Assembly: GCF_002257665.1 (NCBI RefSeq)
Contig: NZ_MQWB01000001.1
Span: 2,767,100 to 2,831,099, forward strand
From: Rubricoccus marinus
Lineage (GTDB): Bacteria; Bacteroidota; Rhodothermia; Rhodothermales; Rubricoccaceae
Direction: 5' to 3'
DNA length: 64,000 bases
Shown here: positions 1,666-9,716 of the stretch, in pieces
Numbering within the stretch: the stretch's first letter is position 1
Layout of the letters: every line of letters begins with the position of its first letter
Made by a program: the position numbers and the translations under genes
Notes under the pieces: model-generated
Told to the model about the DNA's origin: nothing
The model's database searches: none
Seen by the model: only the letters and a program-made list of their open reading frames with translations

Positions 1666-3009
1666 TTATGGCCTACGTGGCGGAACCGCGCCAGAGGCGG
1701 ACAGGCTCTCCTCGCCGCCGGCGAAGACCTCCACGCGGCGCTCCAGGACCGTCTGCCCCGCGTCGCGGACCTCCACGTTGTACTCGCCCGCCATGAGCCG
1801 CAGCGACTGCGAGCCGCGGCCTACGAACACGCCGTCGATGCGGACCGAGGCCTCTGGCGGGGCGCCGACGAAGACCCAGCCCACGGCGGGCTCCAGGCCG
1901 ACGACGAACTCCGCCACCTCGTCGGGCTGCGCGACGACGAAGTCCGAGGCCGTCTGGTAGCCGTCGGCTTCGACGGTGACCTCGAAACGGCCCGGCGCGT
2001 ACGGGATGATGAGCGGCGTCGTGCCGATCTCCACGCCGGACAGCTTGACGCGGGCGCCCGTCGGCACGCTGTTGACCGAGATGGCGGCCGAGGCCTCGAC
2101 GAGGTCGAAGCGGAGCGCTTGCTCCGCCTTCGCGCCGACGGTCACCTGCTGCGCGACGGCGTAGTAGCCGCCCTTGTACACCGCGATGTCGTACGTGCCG
2201 GGCACGACGTTGACCGTCGCCTGCGTCTCCCCACGTATGCGGAGGACGGGCAGCCCGTTGATGACGAGGTCCACGTCGTCCTGGTTGACGTAGACCGTCA
2301 GCGCGGCGTCGTCTTCCGGCGGCGGCGGCGTGCCGGGGGGTGGCACCCGGGCGGGCGCGGGGGCGAGGCGCTGCACCGTTTCTGGCGCCGGTGCGGGCTC
2401 GGCGCCGAGCGTGTCGGCCCGGGCCTCTGGCGTCGGGGCCGGCGCGGGGGCCACAGGCCGGGGCACCTCGCGGAGGGTCACCTCGCGCCGCGTGGTCTCG
2501 CCCGCGAGGATGTCCACGACCACGCGCTCGGTCTCGTAGCCCGGCTTCTGGATGTAGAACGTCGCGTTGCGCGGCGAGAACCGCTGGCTGTACGCCGTGC
2601 GGCCCATCCGCACGCCGCCAGAGGTCACGAGCGCCTCGCGCACGTTGGCGTCCAGCACGATGGTACCCGGCGGTGGCGGCGCGACCGGCTCGGCCGGCGG
2701 TGGCGGCGTTACAGTCGCGCTAAACGCGACGGTGTGTCCGGGCTGGATGCGGAGCGCCGTCCGCGTCACCTCGCAGGTCCACACGTTGCCAGCCTTCCGC
2801 GCCGACTGGATGCGCGCAATGATGCCCTGCCGCCCGCGCACGTTGCCGTAGATCGTCCCGCGCACGCCCGGTTTCACGTCCAGGTCCGGCGACATCCGCA
2901 CCTGGACGGTGTTGCCGCGGATGCCCACCACGCGGCCGTGCACGCGCTGAGCCTGCGCCACCGAAACGGCACACAGCATCACCAGGAGCAGAGAGAGGGC
3001 GCGGGTCAT
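1666..3009 (-). CDS. Secreted protein with four PEGA domains
   Basis: The start is taken as the ATG at 3009, which makes a 4-base ATGA overlap with the preceding gene and gives a clear signal peptide (MTRALSLLLVMLCAVSVAQA). The 447-residue product has a small beta domain (about 25-100) followed by four PEGA-like units, around 115-185, 245-305, 310-375 and 380-440. A Pro/Ala-rich linker separates the first two. PEGA domains are extracytoplasmic beta modules thought to bind surface polysaccharide or partner proteins. As last gene of the kinase-phosphatase operon, it may be an envelope partner of the kinase's own PEGA sensor; that is inference. Confidence 0.85.
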   Translation of the reverse strand: MTRALSLLLVMLCAVSVAQAQRVHGRVVGIRGNTVQVRMSPDLDVKPGVRGTIYGNVRGRQGIIARIQSARKAGNVWTCEVTRTALRIQPGHTVAFSATVTPPPPAEPVAPPPPGTIVLDANVREALVTSGGVRMGRTAYSQRFSPRNATFYIQKPGYETERVVVDILAGETTRREVTLREVPRPVAPAPAPTPEARADTLGAEPAPAPETVQRLAPAPARVPPPGTPPPPEDDAALTVYVNQDDVDLVINGLPVLRIRGETQATVNVVPGTYDIAVYKGGYYAVAQQVTVGAKAEQALRFDLVEASAAISVNSVPTGARVKLSGVEIGTTPLIIPYAPGRFEVTVEADGYQTASDFVVAQPDEVAEFVVGLEPAVGWVFVGAPPEASVRIDGVFVGRGSQSLRLMAGEYNVEVRDAGQTVLERRVEVFAGGEESLSASGAVPPRRP

Positions 3010-3905
3010 CCGGGGCACTTCTGGCGCACGAGGGGATCATCAGGGAGCGCGCGGCGGAGGTCGTCGCACGCGAGGTTGCGCGTCACGCCGTCGCCAGCGG
3101 CCTCGGCCTTGACGAAGAGGTGGAGCGCGGAGCCGGCGTCGCACACGTCGCTTTCCTTGGCGCGTTGCGCGCGGGCGCGCTCGGCAGCGGGCGCGATCTG
3201 GCGCATGGCCTCGAACAGAATAAACGCCTCGTCCTGCTCCTCGCCGGAGAGCCCGGCGGAGATGGCCTCACTCGCGAGGTCTCGGGCGCGGGCGAAGTCG
3301 CACGCGGCGAATTTGGCCTTGGCGGAGTTGTAGAGCACGTCGCCGCCAGCGGCCTGGTCCAGCGAGATGGACTCCTGGCGGATCTGCCCGATGGGCACCT
3401 CGAAATCGAACGTGGAGGGCTCGTAGTCGGCCCGCTCAAAGGTGAAGGAGTACGGGCCGGGGGCAACCGTGAGCGTGTCGCCCGTCATGCCGAGCAGGTG
3501 GCCGTTCCAAGAAATGCGCGCGTCCGCGGGATCGCTCACGATGATGATCTCGCTGGGATCGCCGGGCGTCTCCAAGGCCACGCGGTCGCCGCGGTCCGCT
3601 CCGGGGAGGTCGCCGCTGGCGTCGGCGTCCGGGATCGCGCGGAGCCGGGGCCACTCGACGCGGACCACGCGGTACACGCCCGTCAGCACGCCGACCTCGC
3701 GCCCGCCGATGTCGACGACGCGGGTGGTCAGCAGCCGCGCGCCGATCGCCGCTTCGGCGGCGCCGTCCAGGTCCACCTCAATCTGCTCGCCCACGAGCGT
3801 GACCGTGCCCTCGGCAGGCAGCGCCACCTGGGCCGCAGCGGCGCTCGCGGCGAGAAGCGCGGCGCACGCCAACAGGGCGAAACGGGGCAGGGCCAAAACG
3901 GTCAT
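3006..3905 (-). CDS. Secreted PEGA-domain protein with C-terminal helical region
   Basis: This 299-residue protein has a signal peptide (cleavage near residue 25, ASAAAAQ) and a beta-rich N-terminal half. A PEGA domain spans about 125-185 (motif SDPADARISWNGHLLG). The C-terminal 100 residues are helical and TPR-like, with four cysteines that may pair in the periplasm (FAACDF, SDVCD, NLACD, QKCPG). It overlaps the next gene by ATGA and follows the PP2C gene by 34 bases, so all are likely co-transcribed. No enzymatic motif is visible. It is probably an envelope component read by the upstream kinase. Confidence 0.8.
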   Translation of the reverse strand: MTVLALPRFALLACAALLAASAAAAQVALPAEGTVTLVGEQIEVDLDGAAEAAIGARLLTTRVVDIGGREVGVLTGVYRVVRVEWPRLRAIPDADASGDLPGADRGDRVALETPGDPSEIIIVSDPADARISWNGHLLGMTGDTLTVAPGPYSFTFERADYEPSTFDFEVPIGQIRQESISLDQAAGGDVLYNSAKAKFAACDFARARDLASEAISAGLSGEEQDEAFILFEAMRQIAPAAERARAQRAKESDVCDAGSALHLFVKAEAAGDGVTRNLACDDLRRALPDDPLVRQKCPG

Positions 3906-3939: not shown

Positions 3940-5307
3940 TCAGCCGCCCGAGGCGTAGACGGGCTCGTCTAGGATAAGGGGCGCCGGGCCGCTGCGGAGC
4001 CGGGAGCCGGAAAGAGATCGCGCCTCCACCTTCCACACGTAGTCGCCGCGCGCGAGCACGCCGCCGGGCCACGCGCTCGCGACCTCCGCCAGAGGCAATG
4101 AGGCGCCGACGACCTCGACGGTCCGCGTAAGGGTATCGGCGGGGAACGAGACGGTGACGCGCACGGAGTCGCTCCGCGTGGCGACGCCGGAGATCCGCCA
4201 CGTCAGCGCCGTACGGTCGCGAGAGAGCTCGAACGCCGACGGCACGGCGCGGGCTGGTCCACGCACGGCAGGCACGCGCGCTGGCGGCGGGGGCGCCTCG
4301 GCGCGCCGCAGCCAGAGAAACGCAGCGATAATGAGCAGCACGAGAGCCAGAGCGCCCAGCATCCATGGCGACCGCCCTAGCGTTTCTCTCGCGCGCACCT
4401 CGTGGGCCGGCGCCGCGGCCTCTGGCGCCAGAGGCTCGGCGGGGCGCGCGGGCTCCGCCTCGGCCAGCAGCGCGTCCACGCGCTCGGTCGCCAGAGGCGG
4501 CCCGCCCGCCCGCGCAAGCGTGCCGACTTCGATAAGCGCGACCGTGACGTTGTCCGGCGAGCCGCGGTCTAGGGCGCTGGCAGTGAGGGCGCGGGCGGCG
4601 CTCGTGAGGTCGGGCGTGCGCGTGAGGTGCGTGTGCAAGTCGGCGGGCTCCATCACGCCCGAGAGGCCGTCCGAGCACAACAGCAAGACCGCGGCGGGGC
4701 CGAGGCGGATGCAGCCGCTGGCGGGGTACAGGTCGGGGTCGGCGTCGCCGGAGCCGTCGAGCGCGCGCGTGAGGGCGTGCTGGAACGGGCTTTTCTCGGC
4801 CTCCTCTGGCGTGAGCGCCCCTTGCCGCACGGCGTCCGCAACGACGCTGTGATCGTCGGTGAGGAGTTCGGCGCTCGTGTCACGGACGAGGTAGGCGCGG
4901 CTGTCGCCGATGTTGGCGAGCACGGCGCATTCCCCGTAGACGAGCGCGGCGACCAGCGTCGTGCCCATGCCGTTGCCCTCGCCCTCCACCCCGATCTTGC
5001 GCTCGGCCTCGGCGTAGGCCGCGCGCAAAAAGCCACGCGCGACGGCCTCGGAGTCCGCCTCTGGCGCGTCGAGCGCGGCGAGGAGGCGGCGCCAGAGGCC
5101 TTCGAGCGCGTCGGCGGCGAGGCGCGAGGCGACCTCACCGTGGGCGTGCCCGCCCATGCCGTCGGCGACGAGGAGCAGGGTGACGGGCATGCCGGCAGCC
5201 TCGCCCTGGAGCACGCGGCCCACGTCCTCGTTGTGGCCCCGCCGCCCCGTCACGCTGACGACGTCGGTGGGCGGGAGCGCCCCTGGCGATGAGCTCCGGA
5301 CCTTCAC
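3940..5307 (-). CDS. PP2C-family Ser/Thr phosphatase with membrane anchor
   Basis: The N-terminal 265 residues form a PP2C (PPM) phosphatase. Metal-binding signatures are VADGMGGH at 47-54, NIGDSRAYL at 132-140, LCSDGLSG at 210-217 and the terminal RGSPDN at 248-253. An Ala/Pro-rich linker leads to one transmembrane helix (about 315-333) and a roughly 115-residue extracytoplasmic beta domain. The enzyme is therefore cytoplasmic with an outside sensory or docking tail. Its GTG start follows the kinase stop codon directly (TAG-GTG), so the two are translationally coupled. It should remove phosphates added by the adjacent kinase. The tail domain resembles no family I can name. Confidence 0.92.
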   Translation of the reverse strand: MKVRSSSPGALPPTDVVSVTGRRGHNEDVGRVLQGEAAGMPVTLLLVADGMGGHAHGEVASRLAADALEGLWRRLLAALDAPEADSEAVARGFLRAAYAEAERKIGVEGEGNGMGTTLVAALVYGECAVLANIGDSRAYLVRDTSAELLTDDHSVVADAVRQGALTPEEAEKSPFQHALTRALDGSGDADPDLYPASGCIRLGPAAVLLLCSDGLSGVMEPADLHTHLTRTPDLTSAARALTASALDRGSPDNVTVALIEVGTLARAGGPPLATERVDALLAEAEPARPAEPLAPEAAAPAHEVRARETLGRSPWMLGALALVLLIIAAFLWLRRAEAPPPPARVPAVRGPARAVPSAFELSRDRTALTWRISGVATRSDSVRVTVSFPADTLTRTVEVVGASLPLAEVASAWPGGVLARGDYVWKVEARSLSGSRLRSGPAPLILDEPVYASGG

Positions 5308-6597
5308 CTAGTTCGTGCGCGCCAGCGCCGAGAGTTCCGCTGCCACGTCGCCTGCCGTCGCGGGGCGGTCGGCGCGGTCCTTTTTGAGGAGCCGCATTAC
5401 GAGGTCGGAGACCGCTACAGGAACGTCGTCCGGCAGCGGGGGGACGGGAGCGGTCTCGTGCAAGCGCATGACCAGCAGCGGGTTGGTGTCGGTAAACGGC
5501 GGGTGCCCCGCCAGCATCGTGTACATCATCACGCCGACCGAGTACAGGTCCGAGCGCCCGTCGATGTTCTCGCCGCGGCACTGCTCGGGCGACATAAAGG
5601 GCGGCTTGCCAGAGATGGACCCGTCGAGCGTTTTGGCCTGCGTGTACTCGTTTTTCGCCACGCCGAAGTCGATGAGTTTGACCGCCAGAGGCGCGTCGCC
5701 GCTGGCGCCGGCCTCTTCGAGGAGCACGTTGTCCGGGCTCACGTCGCGGTGCCACACGCCCTGATCGTGGGCGGCGGCGAGGCCTTCGCAGACTTGCCGC
5801 GCCACGCCGAGCACCTGAACGGCCGGCATCCGCCCGGCGTCGCGGCAGAACGTGAGCAGCGTGTCCCCCGGCACGTACTCCAGCGCGACGAACGGGCGGC
5901 CGCTCTCCTCATCGTTCTCGCGGCCGTAGCGCAACGCGCGCACCACCGGAGCCGCTGGCGCCATCTGCGCGATGGTCTGGAGCACCTCGCCTTCCTTCAG
6001 GAACTTGCGGACCAACTCCTTATCGCCGAGCAGCGACGAATCCATGACCTTGAGCGCCACCTCGTCGTCGCCGTCCTTGGCCAGGAAAACCGTCGCCATG
6101 CCGCCGCGGCCGAGCGTGCGGAGAACGGTGTAGCGGTCGAAGGTGCTCTCGTGCTTGCGCTTGCGCGTGACAGCGTAGGCGAGGGCCGCCGCCAGGAGCC
6201 CGCACACGGCCAGGAGCCCGGCGAAGAGCACGTGGTTGCCCTCGCTCGGCGGCGGGGCCTCTGGCGCCGGGGGCGGCTCGGGGTCCAGCGTAACCGGAAT
6301 AAAGTTCGTGACCGCGTCTGCGGGCTGCTCGTAGGACAGCTCGCCGGTCAGGAACCCCTCTTTCTCTGCCCGGATGCGGTACGTCCCGGGCGCCAGGTCC
6401 ACGTCGAGCTGGCCCGTGGAATCGGTCAGGCCCTCGAACTCGCCGTTGATGTACACCGCGGCGCTATCGCGGCCCTGGCCCGTCGAGATGATCATGTACA
6501 CCTCCTCTTGCGCGGCCACAGGGGGGCCGAGCGCTGCCAGCGCGAGCAGCGCCAAGAGGCTCCATCTGCGGGCGAATAGACGAGGGGGAAACGGCAT
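5308..6597 (-). CDS. Receptor Ser/Thr kinase with N-terminal extracytoplasmic PEGA domain
   Basis: The start is set at the ATG at 6597, which begins a clear signal peptide (cleavage near VAAQ, residue 30); the frame stays open upstream without one. The 429-residue product has a PEGA domain (about 45-105), a Pro-rich linker, a transmembrane helix (123-143) and a PknB-like kinase (155-429). Kinase motifs are the G-loop LGRGGMATVF, Lys183, catalytic HRDVSPDN with Asp285, DFG at 310-312, and SPEQ. Bacterial PknB-type kinases usually place the kinase first and sensor last, so this order is inverted, as in eukaryotic receptor kinases. It heads an operon with a PP2C phosphatase and two PEGA proteins. 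Confidence 0.92.
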   Translation of the reverse strand: MPFPPRLFARRWSLLALLALAALGPPVAAQEEVYMIISTGQGRDSAAVYINGEFEGLTDSTGQLDVDLAPGTYRIRAEKEGFLTGELSYEQPADAVTNFIPVTLDPEPPPAPEAPPPSEGNHVLFAGLLAVCGLLAAALAYAVTRKRKHESTFDRYTVLRTLGRGGMATVFLAKDGDDEVALKVMDSSLLGDKELVRKFLKEGEVLQTIAQMAPAAPVVRALRYGRENDEESGRPFVALEYVPGDTLLTFCRDAGRMPAVQVLGVARQVCEGLAAAHDQGVWHRDVSPDNVLLEEAGASGDAPLAVKLIDFGVAKNEYTQAKTLDGSISGKPPFMSPEQCRGENIDGRSDLYSVGVMMYTMLAGHPPFTDTNPLLVMRLHETAPVPPLPDDVPVAVSDLVMRLLKKDRADRPATAGDVAAELSALARTN

Positions 6598-6726: not shown

Positions 6727-6746
6727 GGCCTCTGGCGCCAGAGGCC
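6727..6746. repeat. 20-bp palindrome of two iterated elements
   Basis: GGCCTCTGGCGCCAGAGGCC is a perfect palindrome in the gap between the kinase start and the Spy-like gene end. It sits next to a stronger hairpin at 6755-6789. Confidence 0.85.
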
Positions 6747-6808: not shown

Positions 6809-7423
6809 CTAGCGACGGCCGCCGCGGCGCATGCCGCGCCCGCCCTTGCCACCACGCGCTCCGCGGGGTCCGGAGATTGCGCGGTGAACGAGGAGGACGG
6901 CCTCCTGGTCGTCCGTCAGCACGTCGGCCATGCCGGAGGGCAGCGCCTGACGCTCAGAACGGGCGGACTCCAGCGCCTGCTTCTGCGCGGCGCTCAGGCC
7001 GAGGGCGGCGTCACGGGCGGCCTGGCTTTCGGCCCGGCGCGTCTCGCGCTCCTGCCGGCGCTCGGCGCGCTCGCCAGAGGCCTCGCCGTTCTGCGCGCGC
7101 TCGCCTCTGACGCCGCGCTCACCGCGCTGGCGAGGAGCCTTGAGGGCTTCCATCTGCGCGGCGGAAAGCGTGGGCGCGAGGCGCGCGGCGAGGTCCCAGG
7201 ACGAGCCGGCCGTGCGCTCGCCGCTCATGGAGGCCTTGACCATCGCGACCTGCGAGTCGGTGAGGCTCAGGCGCTCGGTGAGGCGTTCGAGGTGCCGCTC
7301 GGCGCGGTCTTCGGGGCTGCGTTCGGCGCGGTCGCTGCGCTCGCCAGCGGCGCGCTGGGCGGAGGCCGAGAGGGGGAGGACAAAGAGAGCGGCCAGGGCC
7401 GCGAATCGGAGAAAGCGTGTCAT
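6809..7423 (-). CDS. Spy/CpxP-like periplasmic protein
   Basis: The chosen ATG at 7423 gives a 204-residue product with a signal peptide (MTRFLRFAALAALFVLPLSASAQ). The open frame upstream looks non-coding. The mature protein is highly charged, rich in Arg, Glu and Ala, and almost wholly helical. It has LTERLSLTDSQVAMVKASM and related LS-AAQ segments like the LTxxQ repeats of the Spy/CpxP family. Such proteins act as periplasmic chaperones or envelope-stress and metal sensors. The tail ends in a Gly/Arg-rich stretch (GPRGARGGKGGRGMRRGGRR). The function is inferred from composition and repeats, so it is tentative. Confidence 0.7.
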   Translation of the reverse strand: MTRFLRFAALAALFVLPLSASAQRAAGERSDRAERSPEDRAERHLERLTERLSLTDSQVAMVKASMSGERTAGSSWDLAARLAPTLSAAQMEALKAPRQRGERGVRGERAQNGEASGERAERRQERETRRAESQAARDAALGLSAAQKQALESARSERQALPSGMADVLTDDQEAVLLVHRAISGPRGARGGKGGRGMRRGGRR

Positions 7424-7530
7424 CGGAATGCGTGGTTGAGTGGTACGGGGGCGAGCCTGGCACGAGGCCTCTTGCGCCGGGCTCGGAGCTAGAATCGAAC
7501 GAGAGCCGCCCTTTGGTTCGGCCTCTGGCG

Positions 7531-7735: not shown

Positions 7736-8921
<1,186 letters not shown>

Positions 8922-8929
<8 letters not shown>

Positions 8930-9716
8930 TTCCCTCCGCGTCCTCGTGGTCGACGACGAGCCCCTGGCGCGGCAGCGCCTTCTCGACCTCCTCGCGCCAG
9001 AGGCCGACATCACCGTTGTCGGCACGGCCTCTACCGGCCGCGAGGCCGTGGCCGCGCTCGCCGAGCACGCGCCCGACGTAGTCTTCCTCGACGTGCAGAT
9101 GCCCGGCCTCACCGGCCTCGACGTCGTCCGCGAGGTCGGCGCCGCGAACATGCCCGCGACGGTGTTCGTGACCGCCTACGACCAGCACGCGCTCGAAGCG
9201 TTCGACGTGCACGCGCTGGACTACCTGCTGAAACCCTTCGAGGATGATCGCTTCCGCGAGACGCTCCGCCGCGTCCGCGACCGCGTGCGCCTGCGCGAGG
9301 TCGACGGCCTGCGCCAGAAGCTGCTCGGCCTGCTCGGCGGCGCGCCCCCCGCGCCAGAGGCCCAGCCCCCCGCGCCGAAGTACCTGGAGCGCCTCGCCGT
9401 CGAGATGCGCGGCCAGATCCGCGTCGTCCCGCTCACCGAGGTGGACTTTATCCAGGCCGACGGCGCCTACGCCGAGATCCACGCCGGCGAGGACGTGCAC
9501 GTGGTTCGCGAGAGGATGCAAACCCTGGAGGAGCGCCTGGACCCGGCGCTGTTCATGCGCATCCACCGCTCCACGATCGTTCGCCTGGACCGCGTGGCGG
9601 CGCTGCTCACCGCCGCCGGCGGGGACTACGCCGTGCGCCTCCACGACGGTCGCCGCCTCAAGGTCAGCCGCAGCCGCCGCGATGACCTCGCGCGAGGGCT
9701 GGGCATGGAGGTCTAG
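8922..9716 (+). CDS. LytTR-family response regulator
   Basis: The start is the ATG at 8922, overlapping the kinase stop. The 264-residue product has a receiver domain (1-125) with acidic Asp11/Asp12, phosphoacceptor Asp57 (FLDVQMPG) and Lys104 (LLKPF). An Ala/Pro linker leads to a LytTR DNA-binding domain (about 155-258; VDFIQADGAYAEIH, FMRIHRSTIVRLDRV, LKVSRSRRDDL). With the upstream kinase it forms a complete two-component system. LytTR regulators bind pairs of direct repeats; the 52-base duplication ahead of the kinase gene is therefore an autoregulation candidate (inference). Confidence 0.94.

Follow-up and report, generated by a model that had tools for sequence, protein, structure and literature searches.

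In the usual description of bacterial membrane Ser/Thr kinases, the kinase domain comes before the sensor. The stretch of Rubricoccus marinus DNA analysed here (the window, 64,000 nucleotides) encodes one that appears to read the other way round. This raises the question of whether the reversed order is real and conserved, and of what such a kinase might do together with the genes beside it. The kinase gene and its parts are listed below.

5308 to 6597, minus strand: Hanks-type Ser/Thr kinase of inverted topology, 429 residues, assigned from Pfam, hydropathy and charge, and an AlphaFold model.
6511 to 6597, minus strand: signal peptide or first hydrophobic segment of the kinase, residues 1-29, sequence MPFPPRLFARRWSLLALLALAALGPPVAA.
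6244 to 6510, minus strand: predicted periplasmic PEGA-like ectodomain, residues 30-118, from a Pfam match (residues 46-83), a homologue and the model.
6175 to 6231, minus strand: transmembrane helix, residues 123-141, followed by TRKRKHES, from the AlphaFold model and charge.
5320 to 6141, minus strand: predicted cytoplasmic kinase domain, residues 153-426, from Pfam, invariant residues and the PknB fold.

The open reading frame starts with an ATG at 6597 and its stop codon ends at 5308, giving 429 residues and exactly the coordinates of the initial annotation. From the N to the C terminus the product consists of a signal peptide, a PEGA-like ectodomain, one transmembrane helix and a Hanks kinase domain. 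This is the order that had been proposed, and it is borne out by Pfam, by charge, by AlphaFold and by a homologue in genome G194. The N terminus is a classical export signal (MPFPPRLFARRWSLLALLALAALGPPVAAQ) with Arg-Arg in its n-region and a hydrophobic core with a PPVAAQ end. The match to the Pfam PEGA family (PF08308) covers residues 46-83 and scores 17.1 bits, just below the 20.8-bit cut-off. At the same position the G194 kinase carries two clear PEGA domains (74.3 bits), and in an AlphaFold model built from six homologues the ectodomain is formed by seven strands over roughly 90 residues (pLDDT mostly 74-87). Because of the PEGA domains of the G194 homologue and the modelled beta fold, we treat the ectodomain as PEGA-like despite its sub-cut-off score.

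The model contains a single transmembrane helix at residues 122-149. The 20 residues before the transmembrane segment contain no Lys or Arg and the 20 after it contain six, a bias that is strong in the two sister species and weak or absent in the G194, G080 and G211 homologues. PEGA would lie outside and the kinase inside whether the signal is cleaved or is retained as a signal anchor. From hydropathy, charge and models the PEGA side is predicted to be periplasmic and the enzyme cytoplasmic. The two sides differ in conservation between the sister species, with 59% identity in the ectodomain versus 85% in the kinase domain.

Pfam assigns residues 156-413 to the Pkinase family with 134 bits, above the cut-off, and the best PDB matches of the modelled domain are M. 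tuberculosis PknB. Its motifs are a GRGGMATVF loop, K183, E202, H283-R-D285, N290 and D310-F-G, and G165, G166, K183, E202, H283-R284-D285, N290 and D310-F311-G312 are invariant in the six homologues. A putative activation loop contains Thr and Ser residues (NEYTQAKTLDGSISG). The Lys of HRDxK is replaced by Ser in the window kinase, a variant that is also common in conventional relatives. A pseudokinase reading was rejected as every catalytic residue is retained. Judged from its sequence, the protein is a Hanks-type Ser/Thr kinase with an intact active site.

The initial annotation had called this domain order opposite to the usual one, and the window genome agrees. It has 20 Pkinase matches, and when the other kinase genes were classified by the position of the transmembrane helix, 17 of 18 had the kinase before the helix, one was soluble and none was inverted. 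We then compared 103 kinases taken from this class, from this phylum and from the best 80 GTDB loci. Only six were credibly inverted, all in the set described here; the automatic inverted call at locus L139 was a spurious long ORF. In a GTDB-wide scan with two peptide patterns, the inverted topology occurred among the matches listed solely in a Balneolaceae contig already in the set. Neither inverted Hanks kinases nor PEGA kinases were found described in an incomplete survey of the literature, which is weak evidence of novelty. The reversed order is the surprising feature of what is otherwise a variant of a known kinase type.

Full-length inverted homologues are present in six genomes from five families: the window genome (G000), the sister species G004, and G194, G080, G211 and G101. 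A class-wide search of 244 genomes yielded those of G004 and G194, and the other three were added from the loci of the next-best class matches. In a profile search of 394 genomes of the phylum, G000, G101, G194 and G211 scored 564-603 bits while the next kinase scored 219, and because of this gap we regard the inverted kinases as a discrete set. A quick maximum-likelihood search on the 103 kinases separated the six from the other labelled group by a branch with an SH-aLRT of 99; as a six-row set they received 96. The group covers two orders, since G080 matches a contig from a MAG of the Balneolaceae. The distribution is patchy, with six inverted kinases among the 244 class genomes and the four-PEGA protein described below in two of the nine genomes of the family.

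Several other explanations were considered and rejected. Homologues across families exclude a curiosity of one genus, distant families keep the same arrangement and so exclude chance juxtaposition, and six homologues on separate assemblies exclude a gene fusion or assembly artefact. Plasmid-borne spread was likewise rejected: tblastn against plasmids returned partial kinase-domain matches, none of which covered at least 80% of the query.

The kinase is the first gene of a minus-strand operon (6597-1666) that also encodes a PP2C phosphatase, a protein with a PEGA domain and a helical part, and a four-PEGA protein.

3940 to 5307, minus strand: PP2C Ser/Thr phosphatase with a transmembrane helix and a C-terminal Fn3-like domain, 455 residues, from Pfam, NCBIfam and structure matches.
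3943 to 4242, minus strand: Fn3-like C-terminal domain of the phosphatase, residues 356-455, from the model and its matches; probably outside.
3006 to 3905, minus strand: secreted protein of 299 residues with a signal peptide, one PEGA domain, a helical C terminus and, by eye, a beta domain at the N terminus.
3414 to 3551, minus strand: PEGA domain of the 299-residue protein, Pfam 21.7 bits, above the 20.8-bit cut-off.
1666 to 3009, minus strand: secreted four-PEGA protein, 447 residues, Pfam 105 bits; its N terminus looks by eye like a beta domain.
2467 to 2667, minus strand: PEGA unit 1 of the four-PEGA protein, from PEGA profile matches.
2101 to 2301, minus strand: PEGA unit 2, likewise from profile matches.
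1888 to 2085, minus strand: PEGA unit 3, 49.4 bits, the best PEGA score in the genome.
1708 to 1860, minus strand: PEGA unit 4, from profile matches.

The gaps between the four genes are 0, 34 and -4 nucleotides. The GTG start of the phosphatase gene is the base after the kinase stop, and the last overlap is ATGA. The same four genes in G004 are spaced by a 1-nucleotide overlap, 26 nucleotides and a 4-nucleotide overlap. Because the spacing is tight in both species, the kinase, the membrane PP2C and the two exported PEGA proteins are very probably co-transcribed. A promoter scan found no sigma-70-like site, and such a scan is uninformative for this phylum. The four proteins are 63-75% identical between the window and G004, and the dN/dS of their genes is 0.20-0.41, indicating purifying selection.

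The phosphatase scores above the cut-off for two Pfam families (PF13672, 50.1 bits; PF00481, 39.9 bits), and its metal-binding motifs VADGMGG, GDSR, SDG and DN are invariant. Against the Stp1/IreP equivalog model NF033484 it reaches 177.5 bits, below the 230-bit cut-off. The catalytic domain is followed by a linker, a transmembrane helix (residues 315-333) and a 100-residue C-terminal domain. The latter is modelled, with modest confidence, as a beta sandwich (pLDDT 69), and FnIII domains dominate its top structural matches, the best with an E value of about 3e-3. It is 69% identical between the sister species versus 68% for the catalytic part. Since Arg residues occur on both sides of the helix, the orientation is assumed from the expected cytoplasmic role of PP2C, which would place the Fn3-like domain outside. 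The membrane phosphatase and the two secreted partners with up to four PEGA units foreseen in the initial annotation are thus found at the locus. The C-terminal part of the 299-residue protein is helical and by eye TPR-like. Six of the 23 PEGA matches in the 4.4-Mb genome lie within the 5 kb of the operon.

Directly upstream of the kinase, at 6809-7444 on the minus strand, is a gene for a small exported protein that has LTxxQ-like motifs and by eye resembles Spy/CpxP. It has no significant Pfam match, has a counterpart at the corresponding position in G004 (60% identity) and may be an envelope-stress partner. Divergent from the operon, at 7736-9716 on the plus strand, is a LytS-type histidine kinase (PF06580), followed by an ORF whose product resembles a LytTR-type response regulator by sequence.

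The window is also rich in the 10-mer CGCCAGAGGC, with 224 exact copies versus 0.7 expected from shuffles. The copies are about equally divided between the strands, 173 of the 224 are within ORFs, and inverted pairs are common (examples of sites are 1431-1448, 4418-4435 and 6728-6745). Of its 18-bp palindrome, GCCTCTGGCGCCAGAGGC, the window genome has 873 copies, G004 of the same genus none and G006 four. The 10-mer looks like a species-specific uptake sequence or HIP1-type word of unusual density.

A search for the four genes in the same order elsewhere had been suggested at the outset. A TM-bearing PP2C accompanies the inverted kinase, with PEGA or PEGA-like proteins, at all six loci in the five families, and to this extent the synteny, whose absence would have counted against the initial interpretation, is conserved. 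However, the four genes do not make up an invariable set, since a membrane FHA protein is inserted between the kinase and the PP2C at four of the six loci (G194, G080, G211 and G101). This protein has a signal peptide, a periplasmic domain that by eye is OB-like, a transmembrane helix and a cytoplasmic FHA domain, and in two of the four relatives it contains PEGA. No FHA gene was found at the window and G004 loci, and the genus has no homologue of that FHA protein; the only FHA genes of the window genome are about 1.1 Mb away, beside a conventional kinase.

The flanking genes vary. In G194 the genes that follow encode a vWA protein and a secreted protein with five PEGA domains, to which the four-PEGA protein of the window is homologous over its whole length, including the N-terminal domain (E 3e-18). 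Directly upstream of the kinase in G211 are genes for a vWA protein and for an FGE-sulfatase-type protein, which scores 173 bits for FGE and matches PEGA weakly. The G080, G211 and G101 loci continue with lipoprotein-like and PD40/DUF5683-type proteins; the lipoprotein-like proteins of G080 and G101 match CarboxypepD/PEGA and TPR, and those of G211 match neither. The 299-residue protein corresponds weakly to the PEGA-TPR lipoproteins of other loci (hhalign probability 67). At L046:6400-12226 an FGE-sulfatase protein (weak PEGA), a large vWA protein and an inverted kinase form a TagR/vWA-like set without a type VI secretion system (T6SS).

Family f12 (L079-L087) contains a conserved cluster that we consider a sister module, consisting of a soluble kinase-WD40 protein, a membrane FHA protein and a soluble PP2C. 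The kinase-WD40 protein has an N terminus that by eye is zinc-ribbon-like, and its kinase is not inverted. The related membrane FHA protein is found with PP2C in many f12 genomes. Since f12 pairs the related FHA protein and PP2C with a soluble kinase-WD40 protein, the kinase appears to be the exchangeable part. As these relatives, identified via the FHA protein, have a different kinase (kinase plus WD40, soluble), we do not include them among the members.

With a probability of roughly 0.6, we read the operon as a trans-envelope Ser/Thr phospho-switch that has the topology of a receptor kinase and resembles in its logic the threonine phosphorylation pathway (TPP) of T6SS control. In such a switch the exported PEGA proteins would be ligands or co-receptors, contacting the ectodomain of the kinase, the cell wall or both. 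A change in the envelope would alter their engagement, and the kinase would dimerise, autophosphorylate and become active. The PP2C, kept in the membrane of the kinase through its helix and Fn3-like domain, would reset the kinase. In the relatives phospho-threonine would probably be read by the membrane FHA protein, in the way that Fha serves PpkA/PppA, and in the window lineage this reader may have been lost or replaced.

One alternative is that the kinase is a PknB-like growth kinase with swapped domains, which would sense peptidoglycan in order to control the cell wall or division. Among solved structures its fold is closest to that of PknB, and the best NCBIfam match is the PASTA-kinase model NF033483 (210.6 bits, kinase domain only). 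This score is far below the 450-bit cut-off, however, and neither Pfam nor NCBIfam detects PASTA repeats in the window kinase. The patchy distribution argues against a core growth role, and we consider this alternative unlikely.

PEGA has been linked to surface-layer proteins, and the PEGA proteins could instead be structural, surface-layer-like parts of the envelope whose export or assembly the kinase and phosphatase regulate. Their multi-PEGA chains resemble spacers, and PD40/DUF5683 proteins and TPR lipoproteins are encoded at other loci. However, the kinase itself and the FHA protein of two relatives carry PEGA, which favours direct PEGA contact and makes a purely structural role improbable. 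The recurrence of PEGA in the kinase, the FHA protein and the secreted partners is only suggestive as a pointer to the PEGA-PEGA contacts or shared glycan binding proposed in the initial annotation.

A T6SS-type pathway (PpkA/PppA/Fha/TagR) controlling a secretion machine would fit the kinase-FHA-PP2C order of the relatives, the vWA gene of G194, the FGE (a TagR-type domain) and vWA genes of G211 and the extracellular vWA domain of PpkA (PMC3224232), but it is largely refuted by the absence of TssC/VipB (PF05943) from all six genomes (an E. coli control was positive), the kinase is reversed with a PEGA-like rather than a vWA ectodomain, and FHA, FGE and vWA genes are all missing from the window locus, so that we regard this pathway as very improbable.

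The phospho-switch reading has a wider form that we put forward tentatively. In Rhodothermales and Balneolales the outside-first Hanks kinases may be a distinct lineage at the centre of a T6SS-independent pathway of envelope threonine phosphorylation, in which PEGA, present in the kinase, the FHA reader and the secreted proteins, would be the shared recognition module. To our knowledge PEGA is a widespread domain whose function is not settled, and the operon offers a compact system in which a function could be assigned to it. The conserved clade further suggests that the kinase-FHA-PP2C logic, known best from the control of the T6SS, also occurs where no T6SS is present.

In the TPP, PpkA receives its input from TagR in the periplasm and TagQ in the outer membrane; Fha1 becomes phosphorylated and is reset by PppA (PMC10482370, PMC3224232). 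Like the P. aeruginosa TPP (PpkA, PppA, Fha1, TagQRST), the loci described here cluster a membrane Ser/Thr kinase with a PP2C, joined by FHA in four relatives, and they share exported co-factors, envelope-sensing logic and, near some inverted-kinase loci, FGE and vWA domains. They differ in the inverted kinase order, in a PEGA-like ectodomain versus the C-terminal vWA of PpkA, and in the membrane anchoring of FHA and PP2C. Because the kinase is reversed and TssC is present in none of the six genomes, we do not file the operon as a TPP member.

The PASTA kinase/Stp pairs (PknB-PstP, PrkC-PrpC, Stk1-Stp1) likewise combine a PknB-fold kinase, one transmembrane helix and an extracytoplasmic sensor with an adjoining PP2C. 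Their sensor is C-terminal and made of PASTA, whereas here it is N-terminal and PEGA-like, and exported PEGA proteins are added. The helix and Fn3-like domain of the phosphatase are a further difference, although a transmembrane helix is also known in PstP. Given the NF033483 score and the lack of PASTA, the kinase is not filed as a PASTA kinase. The window genome's 17 conventional Hanks kinases with a transmembrane helix have a homologous kinase domain, but in them it lies N-terminal to the helix.

Eukaryotic receptor kinases, such as plant RLKs and those of animals, share with this protein a signal peptide, an N-terminal ectodomain, one transmembrane helix and a C-terminal kinase. They differ in that the ectodomain here is PEGA-like and the nearest relatives found are bacterial kinases. 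The conserved reverse-order clade suggests that the receptor-kinase layout is also present in bacteria.
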